The translations under genes were made by a program, and so were the position numbers. Under the pieces are notes generated by a model. That model had not been told where the DNA came from and did not search any database. It saw nothing but the letters and a program-made list of their open reading frames with translations. Positions 22,606-62,476 of a DNA stretch of 64,000 bases are shown here, piece after piece. The stretch comes from Bryoerythrophyllum caledonicum (lineage: Eukaryota; Streptophyta; Bryopsida; Pottiales; Pottiaceae), in assembly GCA_963971425.1 (NCBI GenBank), contig OZ020517.1, positions 23,260,462 through 23,324,461 of the forward strand, written 5' to 3'. Position 1 is the stretch's first letter. Each line of letters starts with the position of its first letter.

Positions 22606-23454
22606 TTAACCCCTGAAGTCGAAATCGACCAGAATGTGGTCGATCTGACTCTGGTCAGGCTCTCAGTTACTAAATTTAGATCGTATGAAGTTATTACCAT
22701 GGAAGATTGTAGAGTTTTCCCAGACCTTTAAAATGACACCATTCATGCTTCAAAATTCCTCATACTTTAGGAGATATTCACGGTCAAAGTTTGAAAACAC
22801 TGTTAGGGCATGCTGAAATCTGACCAGAACTGCGGTATATGCTCAATTATTCTCAAAATCTGCCCAAAATCAATTAGATCGCAGTAACTTCAAAAATTCA
22901 CCAAAAACTGAGATTTTTTTTTTTTTCGAATTTTGTTTTTCGTACATGTAAAAGAGGTAGTAAAGCATGATCTCACTGTTTGGATTTTCAATCGGATAAT
23001 TTTTTACATGCCTTTTTAATTGTTGAAAATGGGCATTTGTATTTGTATTTCAGCATACCTCCATGTGAAAAATGAAGCATTTCTTTAGGTTTTATAGGTC
23101 CTATGAGGGTACAAATTATATGGACATATTCCTTACTCACATAGGAACAAGAATTTGAAGAGCCTCATGTCAAATTTCCTTTCAAAATTGGTTTTTTTGG
23201 CCCCCAAAACATTAGTTTTCCATTCTACAGCAAGGAAAAAATCTTTTTTTTCAACTTTGAACATTATGATCTCCCAAATGGAGAGGAATTTGAATCTAAG
23301 ATTCGGTTTGCATGTACATGTACAAGTTAGGTACTAGATCTTACGGTTACATACTCAAAAATTTGTCAAAAGTTAAAAATTTTCACCTTTCATTGAAAGA
23401 GGGTAGTTTTGAGGGTTTTTGGCAGTTTTGAGGGCTTTCGACTTTAGGGGTTAA
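22606..23454. mobile_element. piggyBac-like short element, TTAA-flanked (849 bp)
   Basis: TTAA at 22606-22609 and 23451-23454 flank inverted ends CCCCTGAAGTCGAAA / CCCCTAAAGTCGAAA (one mismatch in 15). TTAA duplication and CCC termini are the piggyBac signature. No transposase frame is present, so it is non-autonomous. Sequence between 23480 and 23630 to its right resembles family M. Confidence 0.85.
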
Positions 23455-23921
23455 TGGCACTCTCTCATCTCTATGGTCCTCTCATTTTCGGGGTCTAGAA
23501 GGATTTTTTTGAAATTTTGGGGCAAAAATATAGCCTACGGCTCTAAAATTACTGCCAGAGGCCCCTATCATCTATTAATAGATACACATCCAAAAATAAA
23601 ATAGGGCCCAAGGTTTATCCCACCCCCCTCCTCCAATGGCTCATGCAACCTCAAATTGATATCCATAGGTGGTCACTTTTGGAATAATTTGCGAATTGGT
23701 GGACCTATACTTCATCTTTGTTTGATTGTTGCCTAGTTTAAGTTCCTTGGATCTTTGTGTTTTCATCGAATGCAATGAGGATGTGTCGGAGTATATGCAA
23801 TGGAGTATATGCAATGAAGATGTGTTGGAGTATTAGTGTTGGAGTATTATATGCAATGAGGATGTGTAGGAGTATATGGCAATTTAATGAATATTCGACA
23901 TTCTCCAATAGTGAAACAAAT

Positions 23922-25204
23922 AAGATAAGCCCCCCATGACCAACAAAAACCCATAGCCAACCCCTATAAAATTGGGGTATATCTAACACTCTCCAATCCC
24001 ACTACCACCAACTGAGCTCCAAATGGAGGTTTGCTATTAGTCAAAACCCTTACTTTGGGTTGTTGGTTATGGGGGTACCAACTGCTGGTCACCCACTAAA
24101 CATGGCTGCACAGTTTGAAAATTCATAACTAATTCTGTTTTCATCGAAAAAATATGAAATCACTTGGGTTGGAATTGTAATTCTATTGGCTATCACTGAA
24201 AAATAATATTATAATTATCTCCTCTCTCCACATATGCACATTCCTTAACCCCTAAAGGACCACGACCTAATTCGCTCTAAAACCAGTCCAAAACTACCAC
24301 TGTCAAAAAGAGACATGAAAATCATATTTAAAAGTGAATATTGGATTTTCAACCGTAAGATCTTAAAATAGACTTCCATATAAACATGCCATCAAATTTT
24401 AGTTGCAATCCACCGCACGGATTGATAGATTTTAGTGTTTAAAGTCAAAACAATGGTTCATTTTCATCCCTGCGTTGAGTAGATCAGCTGACTTTGACTT
24501 CATTTTGTATCAAATTTTTGCATTGTACAAGGTCTAAATCTTTTACCATTGTCTTAAGCATGATGTTGTTACCCTACACACCAATTTTTAGAGGTATCAA
24601 AGGGGTGTAGCATATTCAAAACAAGTGTGCAAAGAGTGGAGGTTCAAAAATTGCCATTTCACGTTTTATTTTTTTGTGAGCTACGTATGTATTCAAATGA
24701 TAATCCAAACGGTCAATAAGAAGGTTTTCACCATATATTGTTGTTGAAAAAAAAAAAAGTGAAAAATATGAAGATCTCTAGGTTTTATGTAGAAAAGATG
24801 AAGTTTTTTTCCCCCGTTGCCCGAAAATGTGTGAAAATGTTTGACTTGGAATAAAATGCCTTTTTACACTAAAGACAAGATTTTTTTTGGAAAATTTCTA
24901 AATAAGGAAATATTCTTTGCATGTGTGAAAAATCTCAATGTCAATAGAAACTTTTGTCAAAATTTTTGGAGGTGCCCGAAGTCCCACTTTTGGCTTTAAG
25001 TGGTACTAACTTTCAAACCACGAATCCAAAAAATAAAATAAAAATATGTCCACAAAGCTCTTATCAGATCCTATCTTGAAAAAAAAGTTGAATCAAAAAG
25101 GATTTTTTTTCGAATTGTAGGTACATGCCCAAAATCCAAAATGACCCCGAGGGGACGTTTGGTCCTTTAGGGGTTAACTTGTCGGGTTTAGGGGCTTACC
25201 TTAA
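23922..25204. mobile_element. Inverted-repeat element (family H) split by a nested piggyBac-like insertion
   Basis: Left end ATAAGCCCCCCATGACCAAC (from ~23924) and right end GGGTTTAGGGGCTTACC (to ~25200) are imperfect inverted repeats. The intact relative is at 58953-59306 in reverse orientation. Removing 24245-25177 and one TTAA restores the relative's order and length (about 350 bp). Confidence 0.82.
24245..25177 (+). mobile_element. piggyBac-like short element nested in family H (933 bp)
   Basis: TTAA (24245-24248) then CCCCTAAAGGACCAC; right end GGTCCTTTAGGGG then TTAA (25174-25177). At the equivalent point the related element near 58980 reads, on the other strand, CATTCCTCAACTTGTCGG with no insert, against CATTCC-TTAA...TTAA-CTTGTCGG here, so the TTAA duplication is confirmed up to one base. 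Internal sequence is shared with 54905-55843 and, reversed, with 59740-60931. No transposase. Confidence 0.92.
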
Positions 25205-25615
25205 AGTGACCCGCAAGTATCCAATGAAATGTTGGCTTGTTTCAGTCAACTTACTAAGATGCTCGAGAGTGGCTTGCCGTAAAAGTATCCCATCCTCCGA
25301 ACCCAGTGACGACATTTGGCAGCTCTAGGGAGCAAACGCTGACATGCTTGAGTTCCCTTCATTGCGGGTGGCACAACTACTCCCCTCTCATCCGTACAGC
25401 GTTTCCAGCTCCACTCAACCTCTTCCAAAGTTCCGCACCACTTGAAACGCACATGAATAGAGTAATGGGTGGAGCTCCAACTAGTAACTTTCTATTACAG
25501 TCTCGTGTTTCGACCTGATCGAACCATTGTTATATCATTGAGTCTTTCCATAATCTTCATTAAATATCACTTCTTCGTGTCTCGAGTTTCGTGTTTTTTT
25601 GCCTTGGTAGTTGCG
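25205..25615 (+). promoter_or_regulatory. 5' region of the dehydrin-like gene
   Basis: Non-repetitive DNA between the family H element and the ATG. It holds a moderately GC-rich block (25260-25450) and a pyrimidine-rich leader (CTTTCCATAATCTTC to TTGCCTTGGTAG) just before the start. I find no convincing TATA box or ABRE core, so the promoter is assigned by position only. Confidence 0.4.
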
Positions 25616-26494
25616 ATGGAGAGTCGGGAGGGAGTTATGCGCCCCGCGGTCGACGCGGAGGGGAGGACGACGGAGCAGCCGGAGCACGATTTGCAGCTGA
25701 CGGACGCCGCGATGGTGGGCGCAGCTCCGCCGGACGAGAAGAAGGGGATTGCGGGGAAGGTGAAGGATATGATGGGACGGGGCGGCCGGAAGAAGAAGCG
25801 CAACCAGGAGACATCGGTGGCGAAGGGCGGGATCCTCAACAAGATCAAGGCCAAGGCGAGCAGCAAGGCCGGCCATGGCGAGGACGGCAGTAAGTCTGGC
25901 CCCGCGCGCCTGCTGTCGTCGTCGAGCAGCAGCTCGATGTCGTCTTCCGACGAGGAGGACATCGGCACGGTGGGGTTCGCCATGGATCCCACGGGGCCCG
26001 TCGTTGCAGGCTCCACCTTGGGGCGGCAGGACTACTCCAACGCGCCCACCGGCCCTGGCGCCCAATTCAGCAACCTGGGCTTGCACGGTGACGTCGACGA
26101 CGACGCCCTGCGCCGGCATTCGGAGCGCGCCAAAGAGTACTCCAAGACTTCTAACCCCATGTACTCCAAGTCTGCCGAGTCCCGAACCCCGACCGAAGAC
26201 GGCGCCTCTCACACGAGAAATTCGCATCTGACCCCGAGTGATGACGCTCACGGCGATCGCTCTCATCCGCATCCGAGCGCAAGTGAAGCGCATGCCTCGA
26301 ATTCTGAGGAAGGCTCGGGTGTGGCGGGTGATCACCGTAGAAACGACCCCCGTGACGAGAGTGCGGAGGAAGGTTTTACGCATGTTTCTGAGGGAGGCTC
26401 GGGTGTGGCGGGCGAGCACCATGGAAACGACCCCCGTGGCGAGAGCGCGAAGGAGGAAGGTTTTATGCAGAAGATCTTGAACAAAGTTCACTAA
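25616..26494 (+). CDS. Dehydrin-like (LEA group 2) protein, 292 aa
   Basis: A hydrophilic, Gly/Ser/Asp/His-rich protein with dehydrin architecture. N-terminus VMRPAVDAEGR (7-17) recalls a worn Y-segment. Two Lys-rich amphipathic stretches resemble K-segments: DEKKGIAGKVKDMM (40-53) and GGILNKIKAKAS (71-82); a third, EEGFMQKILNKVH (280-292), closes the protein. Between them are a basic GRKKKR (57-62, possible nuclear signal) and a Ser tract followed by acids, SSSSSSSMSSSDEED (101-115), matching the phosphorylatable S-segment. Residues ~231-282 hold two ~27-aa tandem repeats (GSGVAG(D/E)H..NDPR.ESA). Dehydrins protect membranes and proteins during desiccation. Start chosen at the ATG (25616) after the leader; the open frame extends upstream without further conserved residues. 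GGCAGTAAGT at ~25887 looks like a splice donor but the frame reads through. No K-segment is canonical, so this is a divergent member. Confidence 0.75.
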   Translation: MESREGVMRPAVDAEGRTTEQPEHDLQLTDAAMVGAAPPDEKKGIAGKVKDMMGRGGRKKKRNQETSVAKGGILNKIKAKASSKAGHGEDGSKSGPARLLSSSSSSSMSSSDEEDIGTVGFAMDPTGPVVAGSTLGRQDYSNAPTGPGAQFSNLGLHGDVDDDALRRHSERAKEYSKTSNPMYSKSAESRTPTEDGASHTRNSHLTPSDDAHGDRSHPHPSASEAHASNSEEGSGVAGDHRRNDPRDESAEEGFTHVSEGGSGVAGEHHGNDPRGESAKEEGFMQKILNKVH

Positions 26495-27367: not shown

Positions 27368-27632
27368 TTAACCCGTTACAGCCCCAGTGTACCTGCGGGG
27401 TACAAAAATCTTCACTTTTATTCCAATTCTCTTTCACATAAGTACGGTCAAAATCCACAAAAATTTGACCACATCATCTCATGTAAGTTTAGAAGATCTT
27501 ATGGTTACATTCTCAAAAAGTCCATCTTGGAGTAGAGATTCATGTGAGTTTAGAAGATTTATGGTTACATTCTCAAAAAGTCCAACTTGAAGTAGAGATT
27601 CATCTAAGATGCCTTGGGCCTGTAGGGGTTAA
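27368..27632. mobile_element. piggyBac-like short element, 265 bp, with internal 61-bp tandem duplication
   Basis: TTAA at 27368-27371 and 27629-27632; ends CCCGTTACAGCCCC / CCCCTACAGGCCC. Inside, a ~61-bp unit (GTTTAGAAGAT.TTATGGTT ... AGTAGAGATTCAT) is present twice in tandem between 27480 and 27603. Non-coding. Confidence 0.75.
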
Positions 27633-28725
27633 TCTGTGAAGTCCTTTAGCAATTGATTGAGGTATATTCAAAATCACCAAGAGTTTGAATAAGATTTTCC
27701 TCACAATAATTTATAGTATTACACTAAAAATTGGATATAGTCATGACCAGTTCATATATGACACATATCTGGAGTAACATTGCATCTAAACCCCTAAGAG
27801 CCAAAGATATTTTCCCTCAAGAAACACTCCAAAACTACCACCTTCAATAAGTGGAAAGAAAATCTAATTTTGAAGAACAATTTTGGACTTTAATCGTAAG
27901 GTCTTCAAAAAAGACTCCTACGTGAGCATACCATATTTTTCTAGCTACAATCCACCACACGGATATGAAGATTATAGCATTTGAAGTGAAGAAAATAGTT
28001 TTGAAAATCAAATATCCCTATTTTTAAATATGTATTTATGATATTTTTATCGAGAATAGAAATTTTATAAACTTCATGGGGGTATTTTTTATTTCTCTCT
28101 TGGATTAATAAGGAAAACGTTATGACACTTTAAGCATCAAGAGTTAGGCTTCTAGGCAAGGTTATGTAGAGTTGAATAGTGTAATTTTTTAAGGCGGATA
28201 CCAATGATAGAATATTCTTGGCAATCCTCATCAATTTTACTTAAATTTTTGAAAAGAGCTTAGGGATTTCATATTTTTCAAATTTTATCTTTCCCTTAAA
28301 GAGAATAAGGCATGGTACTTTCATCTACCATTTGGATTTTAGATCAAGCAATTACTTGTTCAATTAAAATGCTATGCTAAGAAAATGGATGCGCTCTATA
28401 CCTCAAGTCATCGTATGACTGTTTTTCTTATCATAAATCCCTCATTTACTTGTGATTTTTGGCATGCAATGACCCAACACAAGGTAGAATATAGTATTAT
28501 GAAAAGTTTCCAATGTCTAGTGGAAAAAGGAGTCATTTTTGGGTAAAAGTTTGTTGACCCTCTCCACGCAAGAAAAAAAAACTCATTGCACATCTCAAAT
28601 GCATGTATCTTTTATTCCACGCATTCAAAGTTTACAAACATTTTGAGTGTCTTCTTGTGGTAGTTCAAGATCTTATGGTTGAAATTAGTTTAAAGATGTT
28701 TGAAAAAGTTTCAAAGCATCTCCTC

Positions 28726-29665
28726 TTAGAGCACCTCCACCGGGCCAACGCCCCGAAATTTGTGCTCGGGTTGCCGCATTGGGAAGGTTTGGGTGGCCCA
28801 GTGCGCCGCCCAAGCTTAGCATCCCGGTTGGGCAGGATTGTGTCGAGATATCTTTTGAACGCAAAATGAATGGAGGATGTCGGGGTAGTGATGACTCATG
28901 GTAGCGCAACATGCCCAATCATTGTATAACACGTAGTACACTTGCAGTTCCAAAATTCTCTCGCATTGTATATAGTATGGATGCATTAGTGATGTGAATG
29001 AAAATGATGTGGACGACATGGATTTTGGTTTTGGAACAAAATTATAGTGGACACAATTCAGCATGTGTCATGTCGCTCACTGCCACCTCACCTCCGCTCA
29101 CGGCCAAATTTCCATTACTTCACATAAATTTTGTATCAAGAGCTTTGAAACATCCTACACATTCTGAGATACATGATTTGATGTGGATTGCGAATTGAGG
29201 TGGACCACTCTAATTTGCGTTAATTGGCATTGGTGCAAGCATTTTGAAATATCCAATCCACACTATATACAAATGAATAGTGTAGCGGCAAGCTCTCCAA
29301 AGTATTTTTTGCTACCAGAGGGGTACACTAAAGATCACATTTAGTGTAATGCTCAATAAATGGCTTGTAAATGCGATAAGTTTTTACTCTTACTGCCAAT
29401 TTTTACAAAGAGCACAACTCTTTATAGTATTCAAATAAGAGGATCATTATAAACAAAGTTGGTAAAAATATTCACTTAAAGTAAAAACTTATCGCATTTA
29501 GAAGTCATTTACTGAGCATTACACTAAATGTGATCTTTAGTGTAGTGGGGTGAATAAAGCTACAGTGTGGATGTTATCTCGCCATGTGGGTGATGTTGGG
29601 CTCTCCCACTCAACCATCTCCAGGCACAGCGTAAGTGGAAAGGCAGTCGGATGTAGATGCTCTAA
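28726..29665. mobile_element. Inverted-repeat element with TTAGAGCAYCTMCA ends (~940 bp)
   Basis: TTAGAGCACCTCCACCG at 28726 and, on the other strand, TTAGAGCATCTACATCCG ending at 29665. 'AGAGCATCTCCA'-type ends are common in short plant DNA elements. A GC-rich block at 28735-28840 is followed by AT-rich sequence. I could not identify a target duplication or coding region. Confidence 0.55.
29324..29544. mobile_element. TA-flanked foldback MITE (family F), copy A, 221 bp
   Basis: Ends TA-CACTAAAGATCACATTTAG and its complement, with inverted arms of about 75 bp; flanked by TA. Copies B (37661-37892) and C (41530-41754) share ends and the word AAGTTTTTACTCTT. TA flank suggests Tc1/mariner mobilisation; the CACTA-like start leaves a CACTA origin open. 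Confidence 0.8.
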
Positions 29666-29716: not shown

Positions 29717-30775
29717 TCAATCTTTAACTCCTAATGGACCAATGTCCCCTTGGGAGACATATTGGGTTTAGGTAGGGTCCTACAATCTCAAATTTAGGCA
29801 TGGATTTATGAGATTTTTTCATTGAATGGGCAACTTTTTATTCGCTTTCCATTGACATGTTTTTTTGGGTAGAAATCTGACTTACAATTCAAAAGTTACA
29901 AACATTTTTCAATAACATATCCAAATAGTGCAGTGGTTTAGTGTGACATATAACAAATAGTGTAGCAAGACTTTAATTAATTCTAAATTCAATAGAAACT
30001 TGAGTTTCTGTCCATTTAAAAAAAAGAAACACTCCTCTTGGAAAGGGAATGGAAATCTTTCCATCTATCTGACAAATTCTTGAATTTCAAAAATATGAGA
30101 AGGATATGATATATGCAAAACTTGTTAGTATATTGTTGATTCTCAGCACCTAGTTGCATTGGAGGATTTATAAAGACATCTTCTATCCCTCTTCTTCTTC
30201 TAAAATTTGGTGCACCAGTGCCTAAGATGATATTTTTGAAGTCAAAATTAGAAAATCACGAACCCTCGTGCAAAAAGCTGCTACAAAAGGTGGTCAAAGT
30301 TTATTGAAGGTGTTTAGTATGACCTCAAGAAGAGTGTATGTCTCAATTCAAAGGCCGATATCTTTCAATCCGTGAGGTCAAACTAATCAAAAAAATTTAC
30401 CACACACACTTGTATAATCCTAGTATAAGATCCTACACTTAGATATGTAAGAACTATGTTTGTTTGCATTTTGTGTTGAATGCATCGGAGTTTGACAGTT
30501 ATCAATGAGTTTGGGTGCTAAAATGTTGTAGTCCTCTAGGGGATGACTGTCAGTCGGGCTTTCTATATTCAAGTTAGTATTCTACTCTACAGAATACAAT
30601 ATTCTGTTACAGTTTAGCAAGACTTACACCTTTGGATTGAAGATTCTTCGAGTAACATCTTTCATTTGAAGGTCGTTTCAAAATAAGACCTTATCATGTT
30701 CAAGTACGACACCATACATGTAGAATATTGTGGCCACCAGTGGCACCTTCTAACGTGGAAGGGGTTAATAAAACC
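29717..30775. other. Non-coding, probable further piggyBac-like sequence
   Basis: Begins TTTAACTCCTAATGGACC (29723) and ends GGAAGGGGTTAA (~30769), which look like worn TTAA/CCC termini but do not pair well. 30580-30740 is an inverted relative of 17980-18200. No gene seen. Confidence 0.35.
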
Positions 30776-31450: not shown

Positions 31451-32146
31451 ATGACGTTCTTCCACTTCTTCAACTGCGCGGCGCTGACATTCGGCCCGCA
31501 CGCTATCTTCTACAAGGCGACGCCGCTGTCGGAGTACGATACGTTCAACACCTGCGTGAAGGCCGCGATCGTGTACCTGACGACGGCGTTCCTGAAGCTG
31601 GTGTGCCTGGCGACGTTTGTGCAGGTCTCGGAGCACGACGCCGCGGGGTTCGACCTGCCGCAGGAGCTTCTTAAGGGGCTGATCGGGTTCCTGGACGTGG
31701 CGGGGCTGTACTACGCGCTCACGCAGGTGACGCACCGCAGCATCTCGCAGACGCACAAGTTCCAGGCCGTGGCGCTCGGCTGGGCGTTCGCGGACGCCGT
31801 GCTGCACCGCCTGGCGCCGCTCTGGGTGGGCGCCAAGGGCCTCGAGTTCACGTGGGAGTACCTGCTGCAGGGCGTCGAGGCCAACGCGCATCTCGTCTTC
31901 ACCGTCTCGCTGGCCGCGCTCGGGAGCCTCATGTGGCTGCGCAAGAACAAGCCCGCGGTGGTCGTGCCGTTCATCTACGCGAGCGCGGGCGTCGTGGCTG
32001 CAATGCCGTCCGTCGTGAGCTACCTGCGCAAGGGCTTGGCCTGGGACTTCGAGAAGGTGGTCAGCTTCGAGCTCTCCGCGTCGATCGTCATGGCAGTCGT
32101 CACCTGGCGCCTCTTCGCCGCTTGCCAGAGGCCGTCACAACAATAG
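31451..32146 (+). CDS. TMEM147: TMEM147 homologue, ER membrane protein, 231 aa, intronless
   Basis: Begins MTFFHFFNCAALTFGPH, matching the start of the TMEM147 family, and keeps its hallmarks: SEYDTFNTCVKA, 'ALGWAFADAVLHRL.PLWVGAKGLEFTWEY' (the most conserved block, residues ~115-145), and about seven hydrophobic segments. Length is close to the family's ~225 aa. In animals TMEM147 belongs to the back-of-Sec61 (BOS) complex that assists multipass protein insertion; the same role in plants is inference. I chose the ATG at 31451 because upstream in-frame residues (from 31394) lack family similarity. The gene is strongly GC-rich, unlike the AT-rich flanks, and has no intron. That could reflect a retrocopy or loss of introns; no poly(A) tract or flanking repeats were seen. 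It appears intact. Confidence 0.88.
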   Translation: MTFFHFFNCAALTFGPHAIFYKATPLSEYDTFNTCVKAAIVYLTTAFLKLVCLATFVQVSEHDAAGFDLPQELLKGLIGFLDVAGLYYALTQVTHRSISQTHKFQAVALGWAFADAVLHRLAPLWVGAKGLEFTWEYLLQGVEANAHLVFTVSLAALGSLMWLRKNKPAVVVPFIYASAGVVAAMPSVVSYLRKGLAWDFEKVVSFELSASIVMAVVTWRLFAACQRPSQQ

Positions 32147-37253: not shown

Positions 37254-39583
37254 CTTCCCGCAAGGTGAGCTCCCACTTCAAGCTAGTCCGGCTCATCTGT
37301 GGAAGTGTGAGCTCATCAGTAGGAATATGGTGCCAGACAGGACGAAATTTTGAGAATAGTGTTTTCCTGACAGTGCTTCCCGAAGAGGCAAGCCAGGAGG
37401 AATATGGTGCCAGGGCGTGAGATTTTAAAACGGAAAGAAAGAGGGCATGAGGAATTTCAAATCTTTTTTTTTTGCTCCGTTGAAATGCTTGGTAATCAAT
37501 GCTCTTGGGCCCTACCATGCAAGCTAAAGCTCCCCCATAGTACCCTTAGGGCCTTACCACACGGGAGGGGGAGGAAGTTTCACAACTTCCTTCAACATGG
37601 CACTAGTGGCACGAAAAATATTCTTTTCCTCCAACATGGCACTAGTGCCTGTGGACTTCCAGGCACTACACTAAAGATGACATTTAGTGTAACACCCAGT
37701 AAATGACTTGTAAATGCAATAAGTTTTTACTCTTGATGCCAATTTTTACCAAGAGCCAATTCTCTGTAGTATTCAAATAAGAGGATCATTAGAAACATAG
37801 TTGGTAAAAATATTCACTTAAAGTAAAAACTTATAGCATTTACAAGTCATTTACTGGGTGTTACACTAAATGTCATCTTTAGTGTAGTGCCTAGTAGTTT
37901 TCAACGGCAATTATTGTGCCAAGTCATTGCCATGTAGATTCCAAAGCAACATCCAATGCAAATTCCAAAGCTACAAAGTTGTTCCATGTCATTCTTGCCA
38001 CTCCCCCTACTTCCTCTCATGTGGCAACCACTTGCTAATTTGAACCAATGTGAGTCATCCAACTCACTGCCTTTCCTCTCGTGTGGTTTGGCCCTAAGTT
38101 ATCAAAGAATTGAGTAATAGTTCCCCCACACCTTTCTCAAGCCAAGTCACCATGTGCATATGGTCCCAATTACTTACATAAGATCCTAAGATTTGGGGTG
38201 GCTATCCAGTGTATTTTGGTGACTTTCAAGAAAACTCTAATAGACTTCCAAAAACCTCATACTTTCTTTTTCTGCACGAATGAGATGCATGGCAGTCAAT
38301 GCTCTTGGGCCCTATCCTCTGTAAACTAAAGCTCCCCCATAGTACTCTAAGTTCCCAAAAAGTTGACATTTTCCAAGCCAAATCTCCATGTGCGTGTGGT
38401 TCAAGTTACCAACATAAGACCCTAAGCTTTGGGGGGAAAGATTCTTTACTTTCAGGAAAACTCTAGACTTTGTTTGTTTTATGCTAATTTTTTATTTATT
38501 AAAAATCAGACATTGAAACTATTTTTGGCACTGGTCGCCCCGATTTTTTTGGAAAAGATGTTGTGCCACGTTATACTACATAGTTCTTTAGAGAATCCCA
38601 GCAGTTCTCTCCACAACTTACTTGACAGTGGGTTTCCCATTTGAGGGCACAACTTTCTGATTTGAGGCCCCCCACTGACTTTCTCATACTCTAAATCTTT
38701 TCTATGGCTCCCTGAAAATATTTGGATGCTCGCAAAAAAGAGGCTTGTATTCAGTGTCCGCAAACTTGCCTTTGTTCATTCCAAAAGTCGCTTTGGTGTT
38801 TGTCTGAATGCACGGATGTTGGGTGGGCGTTTGTCTATTTGCATGAATGTAGTGCCGGTGTTTGTTTGTATATGTTGAACGCAGGGGTGGTATATTGTCT
38901 GTATGGTTGAACTAGGCATCCCGGGCTGGATGTATGGAGGGCTTCTAGGGCGACCACTGAGATTCCCTTCCATATACTACTTTTAGCCCGTGTAAACCAT
39001 CTATTCTATGTCACGTTCAAAATCATTGCTTGCGATGCTTTTATCTTGTTGGCCTCTTTAAAAGTGTGATATTGTCTATAAAATTGGCCGGGAAGTCCTC
39101 AGTCGCATGCCATTGCTAGAATGAACAATGGATACAGTGGGGTAAGAGGTTTTCAGTGCACACACTAGAAAGCCTCGTTTTTACATGTGATTCCATATTT
39201 TTAGTGTCTCCCTAGCTTGATACAATTGTTTTTTCTACTCTAGAGACCATTTCATGAGTTGTTGGTGATGTTCTAAAAATAGATTTTTCCTCAAAGTGAA
39301 AGGGGGTGACCTTGTATGTCCCTAACTTTTATTTAGTGCCATATCAATGGCCAAGAGCATGGATTGCCAAACATTTCATTGGTGCAGAAAAAGGGAGCAT
39401 GAAATTCCTCATGTTGTCTTTCTTTCCGTATTTTAACCTCACTCACCTTGCCTTTTCCATTTCTTTCTTCTTCAGCAAGGACTTTTATGAAAACTCTAAT
39501 GGTTGATGCCAGAAATCGTGGAGCGGTTTTCGGCACGCGTCTATTCCGGGAGAGGCGCGCACATGGAAACATCTGACAGGAAA
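37254..39583. other. Repeat-rich flank upstream of the kinase pseudogene
   Basis: 'GGAATATGGTGCCAG' occurs twice (37324, 37400). A ~90-bp stretch at 37418-37510 is an inverted match of 39345-39440 (ACGGAAAGAAAG, CATGAGGAATTTC, CCATGCTCTTGG-type words), and 'CAATGCTCTTGGGCCCTA' recurs at 37496 and 38299. These may be ends of a ~2-kb inverted-repeat element with family F copy B inside, but the tips are unclear. No gene seen. Confidence 0.5.
37661..37892. mobile_element. Family F foldback MITE, copy B, 232 bp
   Basis: AGGCACTACACTAAAGATGA and its complement at the ends; arms of ~75 bp are nearly identical, loop ~80 bp. The TA-CACTAAAG junction is at 37667 and 37885. Confidence 0.85.
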
Positions 39584-40201: not shown

Positions 40202-40925
40202 TTAACCCTTAAACAACGGAGCCTATGACCGTGGCATGAATCTAAATTTCCAATCCACTGTGTGCTTTAGTTTCTCATCAAAATATAAGTGGAATTTTTG
40301 TTTTTTTATCTCTTAGACCTGAGATCACATGTCTCGATTATGTTACTCAAATCACAGACTTTTTTGTGAGAATTTGAAATTGTTGTGATTTTCTGAAGAA
40401 AAAGTGAAGAAAATTCATATTAAATTCAAATCATGCTAAAAAGATATGAAATTTTCATTAAAGGTAGACATTATAGTGTCAAAACTTGTGGTGTAACTGA
40501 AAGTTTTGTGTTTAGCTAAAATTAGAACCATTGTTATAGGCCCATGTTCAAATTGCTATAGCTTATTCAATTTTACGTATTTTTTTAATTTTCAAAATGG
40601 TATGGAAACTAGACATCATTAGCTTCATTTTAGTAGTTGGACTCAAATTCAAAAAGTATCCTTTTGATGGATCAAATTCAGATCTAGTGCTAAAGCTAGA
40701 AGTTTCTCAAATTCACAAAATATTGAGATTCATGTAACAAACATTTTCTTCTTTAGATGAAACATGATCACCTCAATGAGGCCAATTTCATCATCATCTA
40801 ACACTTATACATTCAATGAACTCTCCCAAAAAAAATTGGATGAGAAATGGTTGTTTACATTGATTATCATTCAATAATGTCACAAAAGAAGCCAATTTTT
40901 GGTTGCTCCGGCATTTAAGGGTTAA
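40202..40925. mobile_element. piggyBac-like short element, 724 bp
   Basis: TTAA at 40202-40205 and 40922-40925 with ends CCCTTAAACAACGGAGC / CCCTTAAATGCCGGAGC. No coding region. The ends differ from the CCCCTAAAGGACC group, so this is another subfamily. Confidence 0.82.
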
Positions 40926-41281: not shown

Positions 41282-41529
41282 CACCACTCAAGGCACCCCG
41301 ACTATGAAAAATGCCTTGGCCAATTCGCCAAGCCATCGGTTGTCACCTTTCCCTCCAACGTGTGACACACACTCAACACAAATATGGTCCCAACTTGCTT
41401 GGTGGAGCTGTAAATTTTGCCTTCTTGATTTACAACTCTTGATATTTTGCCAAAACCTCAAGTTTGCACTAAAAACAAGTGTTGTTTGCGGTGTGCACTT
41501 GAGTGGAATACCAAACCGCTACTCCCAAC

Positions 41530-41754
41530 TACACTAAAGACGATATTTAGTGTTGACCACACTAATTTGTTTTCAAATGCTGTAAGTTTTTACTCTTGAT
41601 GAATATTTTTACCAACTACTTTTTCAATGATCCCCTCTTTAAGTAGTATAGATAATTGGGCTCTTAGTAAAAAAAAATCTTCAATAATAAAAAGATGTAG
41701 CATTTCCAAAACAATTAGTCTGGTTACATTGAATATCATCTTTAATATAGTGTA
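41530..41754. mobile_element. Family F foldback MITE, copy C (diverged), 225 bp
   Basis: TA-CACTAAAGACGATATTTAG at the left; right end, read on the other strand, TA-CACTATATTAAAGATG. Arms are more diverged than in copies A and B. Confidence 0.72.
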
Positions 41755-47340: not shown

Positions 47341-48421
47341 TCAACCCCTAAATTTACCACCAAAAATACTTCAAAATTGTTGATTCTGGTGCAATTAGTA
47401 TTGAAGAAAACATAAAGTTTTATTTTGGATTTTAAGTGTAGGATCTCAATTAAGACTTACTTAGAAAAATACTCACAATTTTTTTAAAAATTTGACTGCA
47501 CAAGTTGAAAGATTATTGTGTTTGAAGTAGAGGATACGGTTCATTTTCTTCCCTACGTTGAGTGGATTGGTAGACTTTGTCTTCACTTGGTGTCAAAATT
47601 TTGCACTACGCAACATCTAAATTTATACCACCATGTTAAGCATGATATTAGTTTCTTGTACCAAGGTTATTGAGTGAGTACATGTACTCAAGGTACCCCT
47701 TGTAGTCCAAGTACACGGAGTACACGTATTCATACTCCAAGTACACCGAGTACATGTATTTGCACTCAGAGTACAAATACATGTACTTCATACTCAATAG
47801 CCCTGCCTTGTACACCAACTTTTAGAAGTAGAAAAGGGGTGTAGCATGCATATTCAAAACAATTGTGCAAGGAGTGGATCTTCAAAAATTGTCAATTCGC
47901 ATTTGATTTTTTGTAACTATACATGTTTTAGAATGAGAATTGAAATGGTCAATAGGGAAGTTACACCACGTCTTGCAGGAGGAAAATGAAAAAATAAAAA
48001 ACATAAAGATTCCTAGTTCTTATGTAGAAAAGAAGAAGTTTTTAGGTATCTTGCTAGACAATCTATGGCTATGTATGAAAATGTTTGACTTGGATTAATA
48101 TGCTATTTTCCACTAAAGACAAGGTTTTGTTTTACTGTAGGGGAGGAAATAATTTTAGTTCCCAGTTTTGAATATCTCACATTTAATAATTTGTCCTAGG
48201 AAAAGTTTTTGAAGTTGCGTGACATGCCCGTTCTCGAGGAGTTTTCCTTTGACATGACATAACTTTTGCATTAAATGTCTACTCTAGGAAGAAATTGCAC
48301 TCACACAAAGCTTTTGGTAATGTCCATCTACAATAACAATTCCTAAGAATAATGCTCTAAATTGATACCATAGAAACCTGCCCAAACCCACAAGAGTCCC
48401 TCGTGAAAATTTAGGAGTTAA
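47341..48421 (+). mobile_element. piggyBac-like element of the 24245/54905 family, with a hAT mini-insertion
   Basis: Left end TCAACCCCTAAATTTACCACC, right end ATTTAGGAGTTAA (TTAA 48418-48421). Internal sequence parallels 54905-55843 in order (GTGGAT...TTCACTAGGTGTC, TTAAGCATGAT, GGGGTGTAGCAT). The alignment is broken only by the 144-bp insertion at 47662-47805. Confidence 0.82.
47662..47805. mobile_element. 144-bp hAT-like mini-element nested in the piggyBac-like copy
   Basis: Flanked by TCTTGTAC (47654-47661) and CCTTGTAC (47806-47813), an 8-bp duplication with one mismatch. Ends CAAGGTTATTGAGT / CAGGGCTATTGAGT are hAT-like. The interior is built from repeats of AGTAC words (GTACATGTACT, AGTACACGGAGTACACG). 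The sister piggyBac-like copies lack it. Confidence 0.85.
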
Positions 48422-52640: not shown

Positions 52641-54303
52641 TAGCCCTGCTTTAGGGTACATTTTAAGTTTGGGCAGGTTTCTAAAAATCTAATTTTGGAA
52701 ACTTTACTGAGAAAAGGCATATTGGTTATCTTTGTGGGGTTTCTTTTTTCTTACGAACTTAAAGGGGAATAGTTATGGTGCTTTAAATGATTAAAGCTCG
52801 ACTCTAGGGCAACTAGGATATTGTAGAGTTGAATAGTACATTTTAAAAGTTGGGTTGCAATGAAGGAAAATTCTTGGCAGCCGTCATTTGTTTTTACTTT
52901 GGAATACATAGAAATTAAGGATTTCATTTTTTCCATAATCTATATTTTCCTTGATAGAAGGCATGATGATTTCTTTTGCCATTTATATCCAACTATTATT
53001 CATGCAATTAAATAATAAAATTTCCATGCTAAAGAAATGGCCATGTTCTATACCCCTCATACATAAAACATTTTTTTTCTTATCCTAAATCCATCAACTA
53101 TTTGTGATTATTGGTGTGTAATGACCTAACATAAGGTAGAACATATTCCAAAAAAATCATGGAATAGAGTTTTCCTCAAAGTCGTGTTTTGCCATGGTGG
53201 CTAGCCTAGGTTAGGCAAAAAGAGAGGGTGCGGTAGGATGTGCGGATATTGTGTCTTTTTCTAAACACAAACTCAATATGAGATCTATATGTGGAAGTTT
53301 TCGGGAGGTTTAGAAATCTCACCCTGCGTATTTCTTGGACCATAGGTTGGCATTCCTTGAATAGTACTACAGTGTCCACAAGCTCCACCTCGACTACTAA
53401 GGTAGTGGTTGATATTCCCGCCCGAATTTCAAGTTTTCATATTTAGACTTGTGAAAGAAAAAATTTATGATTTTTGGATGCTTCGCAAAGCTATTGCAAA
53501 GGCATCCCAAAAAAGAAAACATTTTTTGAGCATTTTTACAATTTTCTATGAATTTTTAAGAACGAAGGCTTAGAGTGGCCAATAACCGCTCATAGAATCA
53601 TGGTGTTCATGAGAGGTTGGATTATGAAAATAGAACACTTGTGCACCAATTCGAACCAATCAGAAGTTCTCAATTTTCCCAAGCATGGGCGGAATTAGAA
53701 CAAGCTTGGACACTTTCTGAAGCCATGCTGGTTGGTTTCTAACACACAACCCGGGAATGTAGGGTGCGGCAGTTGGAACTGCACGGAAATATCAACCACT
53801 ACCTTAAGCCTAGGCCCCACATGCACATGTGCACCATTCGTACAACCCTATATAGACTCCTGAATTCTTGAATGCACTCTAAATTCAACCCAACATCCCC
53901 TAGTCACTCAACCTTTTAGGTTCCTCAATTTTGCCACTCCACATTCATGGCAACCAATCAAATCCAAGATACAGTATCTAATTCCGAGTCACCATGCCTA
54001 GTGCTTTCAAGAAAACTCTACTATGTATTGGAAAATAATGTCATTATTTCAATCAAAGTATGCTTATCATGTCCATGCAAGGTAGAAAAATTATGTTACA
54101 CCCTTTAATTGCATGTATCTTTCAATCCACATAGTCAAAGTGCACAAAAAAATTTGAGTGTCTTCTTGAAATACTAAAATTCAAAATTCTATAGTAAAAA
54201 AATGGTAAAAAATGAATCTAGATTAATCTCATAATATCTGGTCTTTAAGAGGTCAATTTTAGGGTGGTTCTTGTGAAACATAGTCATGTTCCTCTACGGG
54301 TTG
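52641..54303. mobile_element. Diverged piggyBac-like element interrupted by another insertion
   Basis: Parts 52740-53160 and 54060-54303 match 28081-28720 in order (GTAGAGTTGAATAGT, ATTCTTGGCA, GCATGTATCTTT, TTGAGTGTCTTCTTG). The right end GTTCCTCTACGGGTTGA (~54286) is a worn TTAA/CCC terminus. Segment ~53160-54050 is foreign and includes the inverted-repeat element 53399-53806. Confidence 0.5.
53399..53806. mobile_element. Inverted-repeat element, ~408 bp
   Basis: AAGGTAGTGGTTGATATTCCCG at 53399 (one base longer than shown in its partner match) and the complement of AAGGTAGTGGTTGATATTTCC at the right, ending ~53805. Target duplication is not clear. No coding capacity. Confidence 0.6.
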
Positions 54304-54350
54304 ACAAGACTAGTGTTGCCATGAATATTAGTAGTGGATGAAAACTCATG

Positions 54351-54904: not shown

Positions 54905-55843
54905 TTAACCCCTAAAGGCCACGGGCATTTTCACACCAGGAACACTTCAAAACTTGCTCATTCTAGTGCAATAAGTAAGGAGGAAAACAAAAACTATAAT
55001 TTCTACTTCTAACCAAAGGATCTCAATCAAAACTTATTAAGTGAGGTCTTCTCAAAGTATCATAAACTTTGACCGCAAGGATTGAAAGATTATAGTGTTT
55101 GAATTCATTTTCTTCCGTGCGTTCAGTGGATCAACGGATTTTGGCTTCACTAGGTGTCGAATTTTTGCACTACACAAGGTCTAAATCCATTACCATTGTG
55201 TTAAGCATGATGTTAGTTCCTTACACACCAAATTTTAGAGGTAGAGGAGGGGTGTAGCATATTCAAAACAAGTGTGTAAGGAGTGGAGATTCAAAAATTG
55301 CCAATTCAAGTTATATTTTTTTGTGAACTTGATATGTTTTAGATTGATGATCCAAATGGTTAATAAGAAGGTTTACACCACATGTTGTTATGGAGAAAAT
55401 AAAAAGTAAAAAACTTGAAGATATCTAAGTTTTATTTGGAAAGGAATAAGTTTTTTTGGTACATTACCTCACAATGTGTGATAATGTGTGAAAATGTTTG
55501 ACTTGGGTTAAAATGCTATTTTCCACTACAGACAAGAATATGTTTTTGACAATATGAAAGGAAATAATATTACTTACGAGGTTTGAAAATCTCACATTCA
55601 AAAGAATGTCCTAGCAAAAGTTTTGGAGGTGCCCGACTTGCCTATACTCCGCGTTTGAAATTCAAAACCTTATAACTTTTTCATTAAATGTAAGATTCAG
55701 GAAAAAATTGTTCTCCGACAGAGGTTTTAGCAATGCCCTTCAACAGTAAACATTTCAAAGAGGAATGTTACAAATTGACACCATAAGAACAAGGCCAAAC
55801 CTTCAACATGCCATTTAATGACACTTGGTCCTTTAGCGGTCAA
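54905..55843 (+). mobile_element. piggyBac-like short element, 939 bp
   Basis: TTAACCCCTAAAGGCCAC at the left; TTGGTCCTTTAGCGGTCAA at the right (TTAA worn to TCAA). Same family as 24245-25177 and 47341-48421. Confidence 0.88.
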
Positions 55844-56802
55844 TATGTAGAATACAAAATTGTATTAAAGTTTAGCAAGACTTAGGGTTTGTTTGCACTT
55901 GGTATTAGGAATGGTGTTAGCAAATGAATCTAGTCTAAAGTTGCACCTAAATTCATTATGCTTACACCACTCTAACATTAGGTGTGAACTAACCCTTGCA
56001 CCTTTGTATTGAGGACACTCCAACTAAAAGTATTCTACACCTAAAATACTGTGGTCACCAACGGGCCGTCACAACAACTAAGGGTTATATACTCTCCTAA
56101 CCTCACATAATAATGTCAGCCTAATCTGCACGGTGACTTACAATGCCTGTTCATAACTTGCAACTTTTTAGGTAATGAATGTGTCTCTCGCCAACACCAT
56201 GTAGAAAGAAATGTGTAACAAGACATGGATACTATTCAGTGCATAAGTGTGAAGACATGTCTTCTGTTAACTTTATCACAGTTTGTAAATACATTAGTAA
56301 ACTCAGATTTTATCTTGCTATGTTTCATATGTCAAGATCAAAAGCACCACTTGAAAGGTCTTACCTATCACATGAATACCTAACTCATACCTCCTTCGGA
56401 AACATAACATTCCGCACCTTTTGCAACTAAACCCTTTGAGGGATACATGCCTATAGGTGGTCACTTTTGTAGTAATCTATGAATGGCTTTACCGATAGTT
56501 CATTGCTACCCGATCCATGAACTTTGGATACTTTGCGTGGATCTTTGTGCTTTCCATAAATCCGGTGAGACACTGCGTTGCAATATGACAGATTCATTGG
56601 AAAAGAGATTTGGTTTGGACCTAGCGGTATTTCCACTCAGGAAGCGCTCTCTTGTTTTGTGGTAGTTGGCTTTCACAAGTGGGCCATCCACATGCGGTAT
56701 GTGTGGACGCAACCCACCAGAGGGCTTCTGCATTGGACCATCAATATTTTAAGGCGAAGGTGCAAACGAGCCAACAATTTGGATACAAATATGCCGTCAT
56801 CC
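55844..56802. other. Spacer between two family copies
   Basis: 56440-56560 resembles 23660-23760 (ATAGGTGGTCACTTTTG, GGATCTTTGTG.TTTTC), another dispersed repeat. 56424 (AAACCCTTTGAGGG) may be a lone worn terminus. No gene. Confidence 0.45.
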
Positions 56803-57676
56803 CTATCCCCTGAATTTCCAAGAGTCCCCTTGGGGGATTCTTGAAGGTTTGGGCAAGTTCCTATAGTGTCAATTTATAACATTCTTTTTTGACATTATTA
56901 TTGCAAATGGACATTACTAAAAGCTTTGTGTCAATCCATTTTTCTCCTAAATCCAACATTTAATGAAAAAGTTATAGGATTTTGAGTTTCAAATGGGGAG
57001 AGCAGGCATGTCGGGCAACTCCAACGTGAAATTGAGTGTGAAATTTTCAATATCAAGAAATTTTATTATTTACTTTCACATTGTCAAAAAAAGATCTCTT
57101 GTCTTTAGTGGAAAATAGCATAATGACTCAAGTCAAACGTTTTCACTTATTGTCACAAATCCTTCTTCTTTTCCACGTAATGATTAGAGATCTTAACTTT
57201 TTTTAACTTTTTTTTTTCCTATCACAAGATGTGGTGTGAACCTTCTTATCGACCGTTTGGATTATCATTCTAAAACATATTAAGTTCACAAAAAGGTAAA
57301 ATGTGCAATGGCGATTTTTGAATCTCCACTTCTTGCACAATTTTAAGAAATATGCTACACCCCTTCTCTACCTCTAAAAATTGATGTAAAAGCAACTAAT
57401 ATTCTGCTTGGCATGATGGTAATACATTTAGACTTTGTGTAGGGCAAGAATTCAACACCAAGTGATGTCAAAGTCTGCTGATCCACTAAACAAAACACTA
57501 AAATCTTTCAACCGGTGTGGTGAAAGTTTTTGAAAGTTTGTGAGTATCTTGCCTATTAAGTTGTAATTGAGATCCTATGATTAGAATTAGAAATAACAAT
57601 TTTTTATTTCTTTTTTACTCATTGCACTGAAACAAGTGTTTTTGATGTCAAATTATTAGAGAAATTTAGGGGTTAA
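56803..57676 (-). mobile_element. piggyBac-like short element, reverse orientation, 874 bp
   Basis: Right end ATTTAGGGGTTAA (TTAA 57673-57676); left end CTATCCCCTGAATTTCC. Internally the reverse complement of the 54905 copy (AGGATTTTGAGTTTC, AAAATAGCATAATG, TTGATGTAAAAGC). Confidence 0.8.
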
Positions 57677-57822
57677 AGGATTAGTAAGTGGAGGGTTAAT
57701 TTTTCTACTTAGGACCATCAAAATAATGCTGATGTGAAAAGCACCTATTTGAGTGAGACCATCCGAGCATGGGGCAAACTCGGAGCACATTTACTGACGA
57801 TGCAACTCCTACCCTTTTGGGG

Positions 57823-58100: not shown

Positions 58101-58110
58101 CCTTTTGGGG

Positions 58111-58952
58111 AAAACTCGGATGTGTTCATCCATGGCATTTGGCAGACGACATGTGCTGTTGCCAGTGTTGAGAGAAAGGCCAGGCTCCTACATACCGAGT
58201 CTTGTAATCACCTGTCAGCAGGCTTGCAATCTGACATTGCAGTGCTTGCCTCCGGGTTGTTTCTGGGGTGCCACCTGCGTCGCAGAGTCATAAATTGGCA
58301 TGATGGGTACGCCATAGCTACCTCAAACAACATGCTATCACCCACACTCATTTTCTTAACTTTTAACCATAAAAGTGAAGGTTCTGGAGGTAATTATTTT
58401 CACATGAGGAAGTTGACATAAAATCTGTAGCTCACAAGATTCCATGGGCCAATCAGTTGTTTCTTCTTCTTGTGCCAGCCTCTTGAACACATATCCAAAC
58501 AACAATTACACGTTGAAGATTTCTGGAAATGATTTCTCCATCAATCATTTACGGTATGATCTGAAGGGTTTCGAATATTTCATAGAAAAGATGAATGCAA
58601 GTGTTAGGCTTTAATCCCTAATTTGCACAAAAATAAAATAAAAATAAAATTCCATTCACTTCAAACATTGCAGTGGACAAACAATCTGTATTGTCCAATT
58701 CCAGGAAATTTGAAGAGCATGTTTTCAAATTGGTCTAAATATAGACCTTATGGTGAAAACTAAAGATTGAACCTTGATTTTTCTTTTCCTCTCTTTAGAT
58801 TAAAACAAGATAGTTTCAAGTGAACATTTCAATGAAATATAATCAAGAACCCCTGAGAGTAAAGAAAACCAGCTATCTTGCTACAAAATCTCCTGCATAT
58901 TCATTCTACTTCAAATTGTAGGAACAGAAACATAAACATCTTAAAGTCTAGT
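58111..58952. other. Spacer, no gene seen
   Basis: Ordinary AT-rich sequence; no terminal repeats, RNA gene or conserved frame recognised. Confidence 0.5.
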
Positions 58953-59306
58953 AAAGTAAGCCCCCTAAAACCGACAAGTTGAGGAATGTCAATATATGGA
59001 GAGAGGAGATAATTTTACTATTATTTTTCAGTGATAGCCAATAGAATTACAATTCCAACCCAAGCAGTTTCGTAATTTTCCGATGAAAATTGAGTTAGTT
59101 ATGAATTCTCAAAGTGTGAGGCCATGTTTACTAGGTGGCCAGCAATAGGTACCCCCATAACCAACGACCAAAAGTAAGGGTCTTGACTAATAGCAAACCT
59201 CCATTTGGAGCTGAGTTGGTGGTAATGGGATGGAAGAGGGTTGGATATACCCCAATTTTATAGGCGTTGGCTATGGGTTTTTGTTGGTTATGGGGGGCTT
59301 ACCTTA
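58953..59306 (-). mobile_element. Family H inverted-repeat element, unoccupied copy (~354 bp)
   Basis: AAGTAAGCCCCCTAAAACCG at the left and the complement of GGTAAGCCCCCCATAACCAA at the right. It is the reverse-oriented relative of the element at 23922-25204 and lacks the nested piggyBac-like insert, so it shows the empty target. Confidence 0.85.
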
Positions 59307-59739: not shown

Positions 59740-60931
59740 TTAACCCCTAAAGGACCAGAGTCTCCTTCGGGGGGATTTCAGATTTTGGGGTGGTTCCTTA
59801 AATTCAAAAAAAAATCCCTTTTTTTTGAAATTTTTATTCTAGATTGCCCCTGATAAGAGCTTCGTGGTGGTATTTAAATAAAATAAAAATTGGATTTACG
59901 ATTTGAAAGTTAGTACCACCTATTCTAAAAAAATGGGGACGTTGGGCAGCCTGGGCACCCCTGGGAACCAATGAAACACATGTGTGAAAGAGGGGCAGTA
60001 AGTAGGGGCATAGAGGGTGGAGGGAGGGTGGGGCAACCCAAATCAAGGGGAAGAATGGTGGAAGGGAAGACCCCACGAATTCCAAGAAAAGGGATAAATA
60101 GAAGTTTAAAAAAATAGCATAAAGTGCCTTGCGGCGGGCCCGGCAGCTCATGACAAGTGGCGCATGGGAGGGGCTATGGCGGGGCCCGGGTAATGAAAGA
60201 GATGGCACGTGTTGGGGAAAAAAAAACGCCATCCTGTAGTGGCGGGCCACCCCCGAGGAGCTACGCGGGTCCCGCACAGGGGAGTGGGTGAATGACGTGG
60301 CCCTTCATTTCTTGAAGGGTCCCCATTTTGAAGCCCTACCCTCACCTATAATATTTGAATAATTCAATAAATTCATTAAAATTAGAGATTTTACCCGTTT
60401 TAGAATTTTTTTTCTTCTCCAAAATAAGTAAAAATTGAAATTCCACATTTCAACCGTACGGATTTTCAAATTTGTGAATTTGTAGGTAGCAAATAATTTC
60501 TCACTTCATTTGTAGTCATTTGCATTGTTTTATACCCCATTTCACTAAAGTATATATTTGAGCATGATGTACCCCTCGAAATGACCTCAAATTTTGCACA
60601 CACTTAGCTAACATCACATTCTTTGCATTGGTAATGGTTTCCAACACAATGTAGTGTAAATACTAGAAGATATGCTTAGTCAAAGTGAGCTGACTTTGCC
60701 TGGCAAGCAGGAAAAAAAACTATTTCTTGCACTTCAAACACTATAATCTTCACATCCGTGCAGTGGATTGAAACCATAATTTTACAGGATTGTTATACAT
60801 GATTCTATTTTTAGATCTTATGGTTAGAAGTTGAGAATTCTTCTCAAAAATGTGATTATTGCGGCCATGTTTGACAATGGCAGTTTTGGACTAGTTTTTG
60901 ACAGAAATTGTCAAGGAACTTTAGGGGTTAA
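59740..60931 (-). mobile_element. piggyBac-like element with an internal GC-rich block (1192 bp)
   Basis: TTAA at 59740-59743 then CCCCTAAAGGACCAG; right end CTTTAGGGG then TTAA (60928-60931). The right ~550 bp is the reverse complement of the start of the 24245 copy. A GC-rich block (~59935-60350: GGCGGGCCCGG, GGGGCCCGGG) is absent from sister copies. The minus frame 59834-60277 through it has no known domain. Confidence 0.88.
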
Positions 60932-61597
60932 TGGTGATGGTCTAAGTCACCTATCAAAGTGCGCAACTTTAAAGATGACTAAGAATGAATGTAACCTATA
61001 AGGGCAATAGTCAACTAAGCTAGTATGAAAATTCTGTCATGAAGGGTGTAGGGACAAGTCACGAGCCTTTTTTTGCTGCCTAGTATCAATGTGGGTTTTA
61101 TTTTGGAATTCTTATGATGGAATGTGATTGCTAACTTCAATAGCAATATGAGAATTCTGATATTTTTGAATTCCGGCTCATGGATTGGCCAATAGAAGTA
61201 TATCTTTCATTTCTACATATGTGTCACATGTATCTCAAATTAGACCAATAAATTTCTTTTGAGAGTTTCAGGAGGTAAAAATTAAAATACTTTGAAAATT
61301 TTGGAAGAAATTCATACCATAATGTGCTCATGTACATTATAATTGTAAATTCTAGATTGGAAACTTAATTTGGCTTTTATTGGAAAAAAATCTTTTTTCA
61401 AGAAGCCCAAATAAGGAATTAATGTTGATTTTTGCTCCAAATTCTTATCTAACCTTTTTCAATATACAAGATTCTATCATGATATATAAAGTGTTTTAAA
61501 AAAAAAATCCATCCTTTTCTTCAAAACCTAGTTTTTGGTGCCTTGATTCAACATATCGTATATACTGCGTAGTATATTTTGGAATATTTTGAGCCTT
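60932..61597. other. Spacer, no gene seen
   Basis: AT-rich, no terminal repeats, conserved frame or RNA gene recognised. Confidence 0.5.
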
Positions 61598-61975
61598 TGT
61601 ACCGTAGGTGAACCTTTGGTTTGGCACCTTCATGCGGAATAATTAATTAAAGTGACAAAATGACATTAGGCATTCAAAATAACAATAACGTTATTTTCGG
61701 CAAAAAATCAAAGACTACAATATTTGGCTTGCTTTGGCACCCATGGGGATTGAACTCAAGACCTTGGAATTCCAAACCCAAGTGTTTATGCATGAAATGC
61801 CATGGATGAAGACTTTTCCAAGCCTTATTCCACTTTGATGTCTCTCCATGTGCCAATATCTGTAAATATACATTTTTTACAATTTCGGCATTTTCAAAAA
61901 AATATTTTCCACTTAATTCGGCATGGACTTTTCTAATTAGTTTATGCCGGACCGGAGGTTCACCTACAGTAGTAT
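61598..61975 (-). mobile_element. Inverted-repeat element with a tRNA-like promoter word
   Basis: GTAGGTGAACCTTTGGTTTGG (from ~61604) pairs with the complement of GTAGGTGAACCTCCGGTCCGG (to ~61967). The minus strand carries CTTGAGTTCAATCCCCATGG (~61745), a B-box-like word. A tRNA-like promoter inside TIRs is unusual; it may be a SINE captured by a DNA element. The frame 61674-62009 extends past the right end and is not a gene. Confidence 0.6.
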
Positions 61976-62234
61976 GCAATATACTCATCTTAAGAAAGGG
62001 TTGGGCCACTTATAGAACAACATTTGTTATAAGAACACAAAGTCCAAAAAAAGCACCATGTTCAAGATATTTTCTATTCACCTAACATTTTATTGGCCAT
62101 GATTTCTTTATACCTAATTAATGGACGGTTGGTATTCAACAACAATTCAAGTTTTAACAAAGGGCTCCAAAACAAATATACTATGGAATATATTTTTTTC
62201 CCCAAAAGTAAGTAACCTTAGTGAACTTCTATCC

Positions 62235-62476
62235 TTAACCCTTTAGTATCGGGATGGTCGTTTTTGGCAATAGTTCATAGGCTTCAAATGGAACAATTCT
62301 TAGGCGCATTGGTGGAAACATTGAAGAGCTACCATGCTTTCTATGAAGTGAGGTCAACATGAAATGTACCATGCGTGTAGATAGTGTCATGCATTGTCTA
62401 CTAGCTATTCTGCACAATCTATTATCCTTGTGGATTCTCCCGTATCTTTAGAAGACCTCCGTCGTTAAGGGGTTAA
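62235..62476. mobile_element. piggyBac-like short element, 242 bp
   Basis: TTAA at 62235-62238 and 62473-62476; ends CCCTTTAGTATCGGGATGG / CCCCTTAACGACGGAGG. Inverted similarity is short (first ~9 bases plus scattered), so the call rests mainly on TTAA and CCC termini. Confidence 0.65.

Follow-up and report, generated by a model that had tools for sequence, protein, structure and literature searches.

Non-autonomous piggyBac-type elements with a left-end palindrome in the moss Bryoerythrophyllum caledonicum and their transposase-bearing relatives

A stretch of 64,000 nt from the moss Bryoerythrophyllum caledonicum (assembly GCA_963971425.1, contig OZ020517.1, positions 23,260,462 to 23,324,461; hereafter the window) contains about a dozen copies or fragments of piggyBac-type transposons, all without genes, and it raises the question of which superfamily moved them and where the transposase resides. 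PiggyBac has been studied mainly in animals. Here, the repeats of the window were compared with each other and with transposase-bearing loci of the same assembly, and they are almost certainly non-autonomous, mostly internally deleted moss piggyBac elements mobilised in trans by the transposases of 4.2-5.6-kb elements elsewhere in the genome. The original prediction, made from the window alone, had listed nine short elements without a transposase, and the piggyBac-type identity it proposed was supported by the piggyBac transposase domain (PF13843; DDE_Tnp_1_7) found in full-length elements with corresponding ends.

The nine listed starts were all confirmed as element ends, with exact TTAACCC at seven of them and TCAACCC (47341) or CTATCCC (56803) at the other two. 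Intact TTAA on both sides, likewise predicted, was present in six elements (22606-23454, 24245-25177, 27368-27632, 40202-40925, 59740-60931 and 62235-62476), and the elements start with CCC, end with GGG and carry short terminal inverted repeats (TIRs). TTAACCC occurred 20 times in the window versus 9.6 ± 3.0 in 300 block shuffles (maximum 19), which is not extreme alone. Ends of the TTAACCCNT type (motif plus reverse) numbered 17 versus 3.0 in block shuffles (maximum 8), and convergent TTAACCC/GGGTTAA pairs 100-1500 bp apart numbered 7 versus 0.05 (maximum 1), the seventh pair (22519 with 23454) being redundant with 22606-23454. The tip CCCCTAAAG was found six times, each time directly preceded by TTAA.

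Seven of the nine elements formed one lineage by BLAST and nhmmer profile searches, the main non-autonomous family, named here F1. A profile built from 24245, 47341, 54905 and 57676 also detected 22606 (E 7e-8), 27368 (3e-6) and 59740 (4e-29). Five further copies or fragments, including the near-complete 29724-30546, were absent from the original list, and F1 spans about 8.3 kb of the window in total. A second, wider profile was built including the known copies, so their matches to it arise by construction; it gave zero matches at E 0.5 against the reversed window. Reading 54905-57676 as one 2.7-kb element was rejected, as it consists of two copies of about 0.9 kb each in opposite orientation (54905-55843 and 56803-57676). 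The 47341 copy carries inserted GTACATGTACTC-like repeats at 47672-47810. The G+C-rich interior of 59740-60931 lies inside a full-length match (83%) to another copy, at 6337-7451 of locus L023, so it is apparently a sub-family trait and not an insertion peculiar to this copy. The two remaining listed elements, 40202-40925 and 62235-62476, fall outside F1, and their mutual likeness is limited to near one tip.

As predicted, none of the window elements carries a transposase: profile searches revealed neither a gene nor a detectable remnant, and the best match of an insect-built transposase profile in the window had an E value of 0.23 versus 0.15 for the reversed control. The original prediction had also supposed an unseen source with a piggyBac-type DDE transposase and corresponding ends, and such elements were found outside the window in the same 437-Mb assembly. 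PF13843 gave at least 120 matches there, all above the cut-off, a number that is a lower bound, with some neighbouring matches looking like pieces of single genes; none of 14 control genomes contained the domain. From this assembly 29 loci (L001-L029), a small part of the genome, were taken, and the transposase-bearing elements of 4.2-5.6 kb read from them have ends in which TTAA is followed by CCC. PF13843 was present in 10 of the 10 open reading frames scanned, two of which are copies of one element. In all nine moss proteins aligned with the reference P0122, which is 100% identical to Trichoplusia ni piggyBac over residues 130-487, the aspartates D268, D346, D447 and D450, which we take to be catalytic, and six C-terminal cysteines were invariant. 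The full-length relatives of F1 thereby combine a DDE_Tnp_1_7 transposase, the aspartates and a cysteine-rich domain.

Some of these sources have moved recently. Identity among the elements of L009, L014 and L025 is about 97%, that between the L023 and L024 elements reaches 99.86% over 5.55 kb, and in both sets the flanks differ and homology ends 0-2 bp from the TTAA ends. Because near-identity stops at the TTAA ends and the flanks differ, these copies are independent, recent insertions. In a FastTree analysis of 79 of 82 sequences, the 11 moss proteins and 40 environmental sequences made up a single group (51 members, support 0.991) free of insects, in which the moss proteins were spread over several lineages. 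A search with the L029 protein found 63 relatives; the only two named are animal proteins (30-32% identity), and none bore a plant name, most being nameless. A search with the T. ni transposase protein was uninformative on plants, the named proteins among the best 120 of 1779 matches all being insect.

The insertion sites were examined by joining the flanks of elements. Of 24 joined flanks tried, four (24245, 54905, L017 and L028) had an alignment crossing the junction by at least 20 bases. The full-length element of L028 has unfilled relatives at window positions 41528-41673 (TTAA) and in L011 (TCGA). Four ungapped slot bases were present in four of the five empty-site alignments (TCAA, TTAC, TCGA, TTAA), the exception being L017, which has a one-base gap and AAGA in the slot. 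In addition, L014 contains a transposase-bearing piggyBac element (388-5329) nested within an F1 copy; after removal of the element with one TTAA kept, the sequence aligned through the junction to the window copy 54905 (73% over 929 bp). The targets are thus four bases long and TTAA-like, and the predicted TTAA-targeted insertion was borne out by four-base empty sites within the window itself. Duplication of the TTAA target is seen in the six two-sided elements and at the empty sites of 24245, 54905, L028 and L014. Two foldbacks in the window, 29324-29544 and 37655-37898, have arms of 86-98 nt that are 88-90% complementary, with a loop of about 48 nt. The joined flanks of the L028 element match parts of both foldbacks as well as 41528-41673, so the three seem to be one repeat family.

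A further character of the elements concerns their left ends. According to passages of PMC7351741 (PDB 6x67/6x68), the palindrome of T. ni piggyBac occupies bp 17-33 and is bound by a dimer of cysteine-rich domains, the minor groove being centred near bp 25. In the moss, pairing around bp 24-25 of eight window left ends was 0.73 versus 0.44 ± 0.04 after shuffling (0/5000), the best of 230 centres. When halves were swapped between copies, pairing fell to 0.52, and 10 of 40,320 permutations reached the observed value. Twelve transposase-bearing left ends, upstream of the gene, gave 0.72 versus 0.44 at the same position (0/2000 shuffles, 0/20,000 permutations). The window palindromes were first noticed by eye, and the transposase-bearing ends were tested later at the same position. 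Pairing was 0.34 at bp 24-25 of ten window right ends and 0.40, not significant, at those of eleven transposase-bearing elements, the farther right-end position of T. ni piggyBac not being tested separately. For most ends taken singly, a generic score for palindromes within bp 14-45 was weak, and the decisive result came only from groups of ends scored at a fixed position. L014 and L025 (copies of L009) and L024 (copy of L023) were excluded from the left-end test, as were L001-L008, L011, L015, L019, L022, L027 and L029, for which no end pair was assigned. For L010 and L018 the left end had to be picked from alternative candidates, and imperfect right ends were used for L018, L020 and L026; L020 may end at 8637 instead, and L016 has no assigned right end.

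The palindrome sequence varies between families, its halves co-vary and its position is fixed at one end; this repeated change at a fixed place is the most unusual feature of the elements. Over the 24-base palindrome region, 22606 matches L023 (19/24, both outer arms common), 55843 matches L016 (18/24), 25177, 29724 and 56803 match L012 (16-17/24), 27368 matches L026 (14/24) and the 40925 end matches L016 (15/24), while the 59740, 40202, 62235 and 62476 ends had no above-chance match to transposase-bearing elements. The sub-families with different second halves of the TIR that had been proposed are therefore real, their palindrome regions matching different transposase-bearing elements.

How F1 arose is suggested by loci L012 and L026. 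Because both have F1-like sequence at either end, oriented alike, F1 reads as a set of putative internal-deletion derivatives of transposase-bearing elements. The left end of L020 has F1 sequence; at the right end the match is strong if that end lies at 8637 and weak (E 4e-4) if it lies at 6213. We infer that F1 was moved in trans by the moss piggyBac transposases. Several observations weigh against this account. The reading frames of L012 and L026 stop short of the cysteine-rich domain as read, and these elements may themselves be defective. Only the end regions are common to F1 and the transposase-bearing elements, and an exchange of ends instead of deletion is possible. No coding remnant was found in the window with a combined moss, environmental and insect transposase profile (best E 0.49 versus 0.088 reversed), which detects the L027 gene at 2e-139 as positive control. 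Palindrome scores were low (0.38-0.57) in four of the twelve transposase-bearing left ends (L010, L016, L017 and L018) and in two of the eight window left ends (48421 and 59740), and the 29 loci contain no relative of 40202 or 62235.

The original prediction had interpreted the density of copies as a burst, and a recent burst is unsupported by the divergence. The four best-aligned F1 copies are 64-76% identical, with Kimura two-parameter distances of 0.29-0.49. In the 29 loci, where identities are lower bounds since closer copies may exist elsewhere in the genome, the closest relatives were at 95% for 22606 (L029 7968-7082), 91% for 24245 (L028 6665-7599), 83% over the full length for 59740 (the L023 copy above), 80% for 54905 (L029 or L003-L007) and 72-78%, some over partial length, for 27368, 29724, 47341 and 56803. 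Although 22606 has a 95% relative, this spread from 72% to 95% looks like several sub-families of different ages and repeated activity rather than one burst. The expectation that F1 ends and sequence recur outside the window held, copies being present on other contigs. F1-type sequence apart from the transposase element was found in 12 of 20 nine-kb loci, which were centred on transposases and are biased accordingly, and this speaks for a genome-wide rather than a local family.

Other origins of the TTAA-flanked repeats were weighed against this evidence. TTAA target preference by itself does not distinguish piggyBac from the Kolobok and Sola3 superfamilies, and one of these could in principle have produced the same flanks. 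It is very unlikely that either did, since elements with F1-type ends carry PF13843 with the invariant aspartates and the palindrome position agrees with piggyBac; this contradicts Kolobok or Sola3 for F1, the evidence covering F1 and not 40202 and 62235, and including no genome search with a Kolobok or Sola profile. The window also contains a Tc1-like transposase reading frame (15983-16789, minus strand; HTH_Tnp_Tc3_2, DDE_3), which would fit an origin of the repeats as miniature inverted-repeat transposable elements (MITEs) of Tc1/mariner, or of PIF/Harbinger, with TA or TWA targets and a merely apparent TTAA flank. Such an origin is barely credible given the TTAA before every CCCCTAAAG tip, the four ungapped slot bases in most empty-site alignments and the piggyBac transposase encoded by elements with common ends; a TA target duplication was not seen in the CCCCTAAAG flanks or the empty sites.

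The closeness of several copies could also point to local segmental duplication of one old element instead of repeated transposition. This is extremely unlikely, as matches between copies fall within the elements, copies lie on other contigs and empty sites exist.

With piggyBac transposition as the preferred explanation, a transposase dimer would cut at TTAA and reinsert at TTAA. By analogy with Trichoplusia piggyBac, its C-terminal cysteine-rich domains may recognise the left-end palindrome at about bp 17-33. The match between palindrome and domain would then determine the derivatives that each transposase moves, so that several sub-families arise, and the window copies would stem from several periods of activity and now be decaying. 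We give about an even chance to the broader proposal that the moss has diverse, recently active piggyBac lineages in which the specificities of the cysteine-rich domain and of the palindrome at one end, fixed in position, repeatedly shifted in step, producing lock-and-key pairs and non-autonomous elements moved according to the palindrome they carry.

Table 1. Positions of F1 copies, left-end palindromes, related empty sites and the two separate elements in the window.
Feature	Position	Strand	Details
F1-lineage non-autonomous element	22606..23454	+	849 bp; TTAA both ends; palindrome-bearing left end at 22606
F1 element	24245..25177	-	933 bp; TTAA both ends; 13-bp TIR CCCCTAAAGGACC; left end at 25177
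Short F1-lineage element	27368..27632	+	265 bp; TTAA both ends; 65-bp internal repeat
F1 fragment, right-end side	27787..28001	-	profile match
F1 fragment without either tip	28030..28708	+	profile match
F1 element absent from the original list	29724..30546	+	823 bp; TTAA at 29724; decayed TCAT at 30546
F1 element with internal insertion	47341..48421	-	1081 bp; TCAA / TTAA
Degenerate or composite F1 copy	52650..54304	+	matches confined to 54304-54053 and 52813-52650
F1 element	54905..55843	-	939 bp; TTAA / TTGA; left end at 55843
F1 element	56803..57676	+	874 bp; CTAT / TTAA
Weak F1 fragment	58650..58816	+	E 4e-8 and 5.7e-7
F1 element, G+C-rich interior	59740..60931	+	1192 bp; TTAA both ends
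Left-end palindrome ATCGACCAGAATGTGGTCGAT	22624..22644	+	outer arms identical to left-end palindrome of transposase-bearing L023/L024
Left-end palindrome of 24245-25177	25139..25160	-	
Left-end palindrome TGTACCTGCGGGGTACA	27388..27404	+	
Left-end palindrome ATGTCCCCTTGGGAGACAT	29742..29760	+	
Left-end palindrome TGTCATTAAATGGCA	55809..55823	-	
Left-end palindrome CAAGAGTCCCCTTGGGGGATTCTTG	56819..56843	+	
Related empty site of 24245-25177	58952..59181	-	joined flanks with one TTAA: 87% over 230 bp; TCAA in slot
Related empty site of 54905-55843	18174..18265	-	joined flanks: 81.5% over 92 bp; TTAC in slot
Separate TTAA element	40202..40925	.	724 bp; ends TTAACCCTTAAACAACGGAGC / TTAACCCTTAAATGCCGGAGC
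Separate TTAA element	62235..62476	.	242 bp; 62476 end resembles 40202 (ACGACGGAG)

Other features of the window were recorded as well. Among the named plants in the matches listed, the TMEM147 reading frame (31454-32143) shows 93% identity with Ceratodon purpureus, 81% with Physcomitrium and at most 77% with the others, and by this one gene the host is a moss. A Myb/SANT-like open reading frame (PF13837, E 7.5e-5, below the cut-off) adjoins another one, which presumably resembles a PIF/Harbinger nuclease and had no Pfam match; the two lie at 19623-20171 (+) and 20528-20905 (-). A very long GAA/TTC or similar microsatellite at 1472-2546 is open in several frames, and the open reading frame 25466-26494 (+) between F1 copies is G+C-rich and hydrophilic, gives a LEA-like impression and had no Pfam match.

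Compared with the parts of PMC7351741 that describe T. ni piggyBac, the moss elements have in common the TTAA target, CCC ends, a short TIR, the catalytic-core aspartates, the C-terminal cysteine-rich domain and a left-end palindrome at about bp 17-33. They differ in that their proteins are 23-26% identical to it, their palindromes differ in sequence from that of T. ni and from one family to another, and no comparable palindrome stands at bp 24-25 of their right ends. In passages of PMC11707139, the palindrome of piggyBat from Myotis lucifugus has an unrelated sequence and, as in the moss elements, is confined to the left end; that end has three motif-palindrome units, whereas one unit was demonstrated in the moss. 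For plants, sections of the published surveys list PiggyBac MITEs in angiosperms (PMC10004981), PiggyBac repeats in the fern Ceratopteris (PMC6890710) and PiggyBac among the superfamilies of all groups studied (PMC4438587); these sections describe neither a transposase nor an end sequence or palindrome, have the annotation in common with the moss elements and are likened by name, not by sequence. Subscription journals and repeat databases lay outside the literature search, which returned no report on piggyBac from mosses.

For the biology of piggyBac, near-identical copies with long open frames would show recent transposition of this superfamily inside a land plant. Left-end palindromes at a fixed position with co-varying halves, together with conserved cysteine-rich domains, would make the recognition of its own ends by each transposase testable by comparison.

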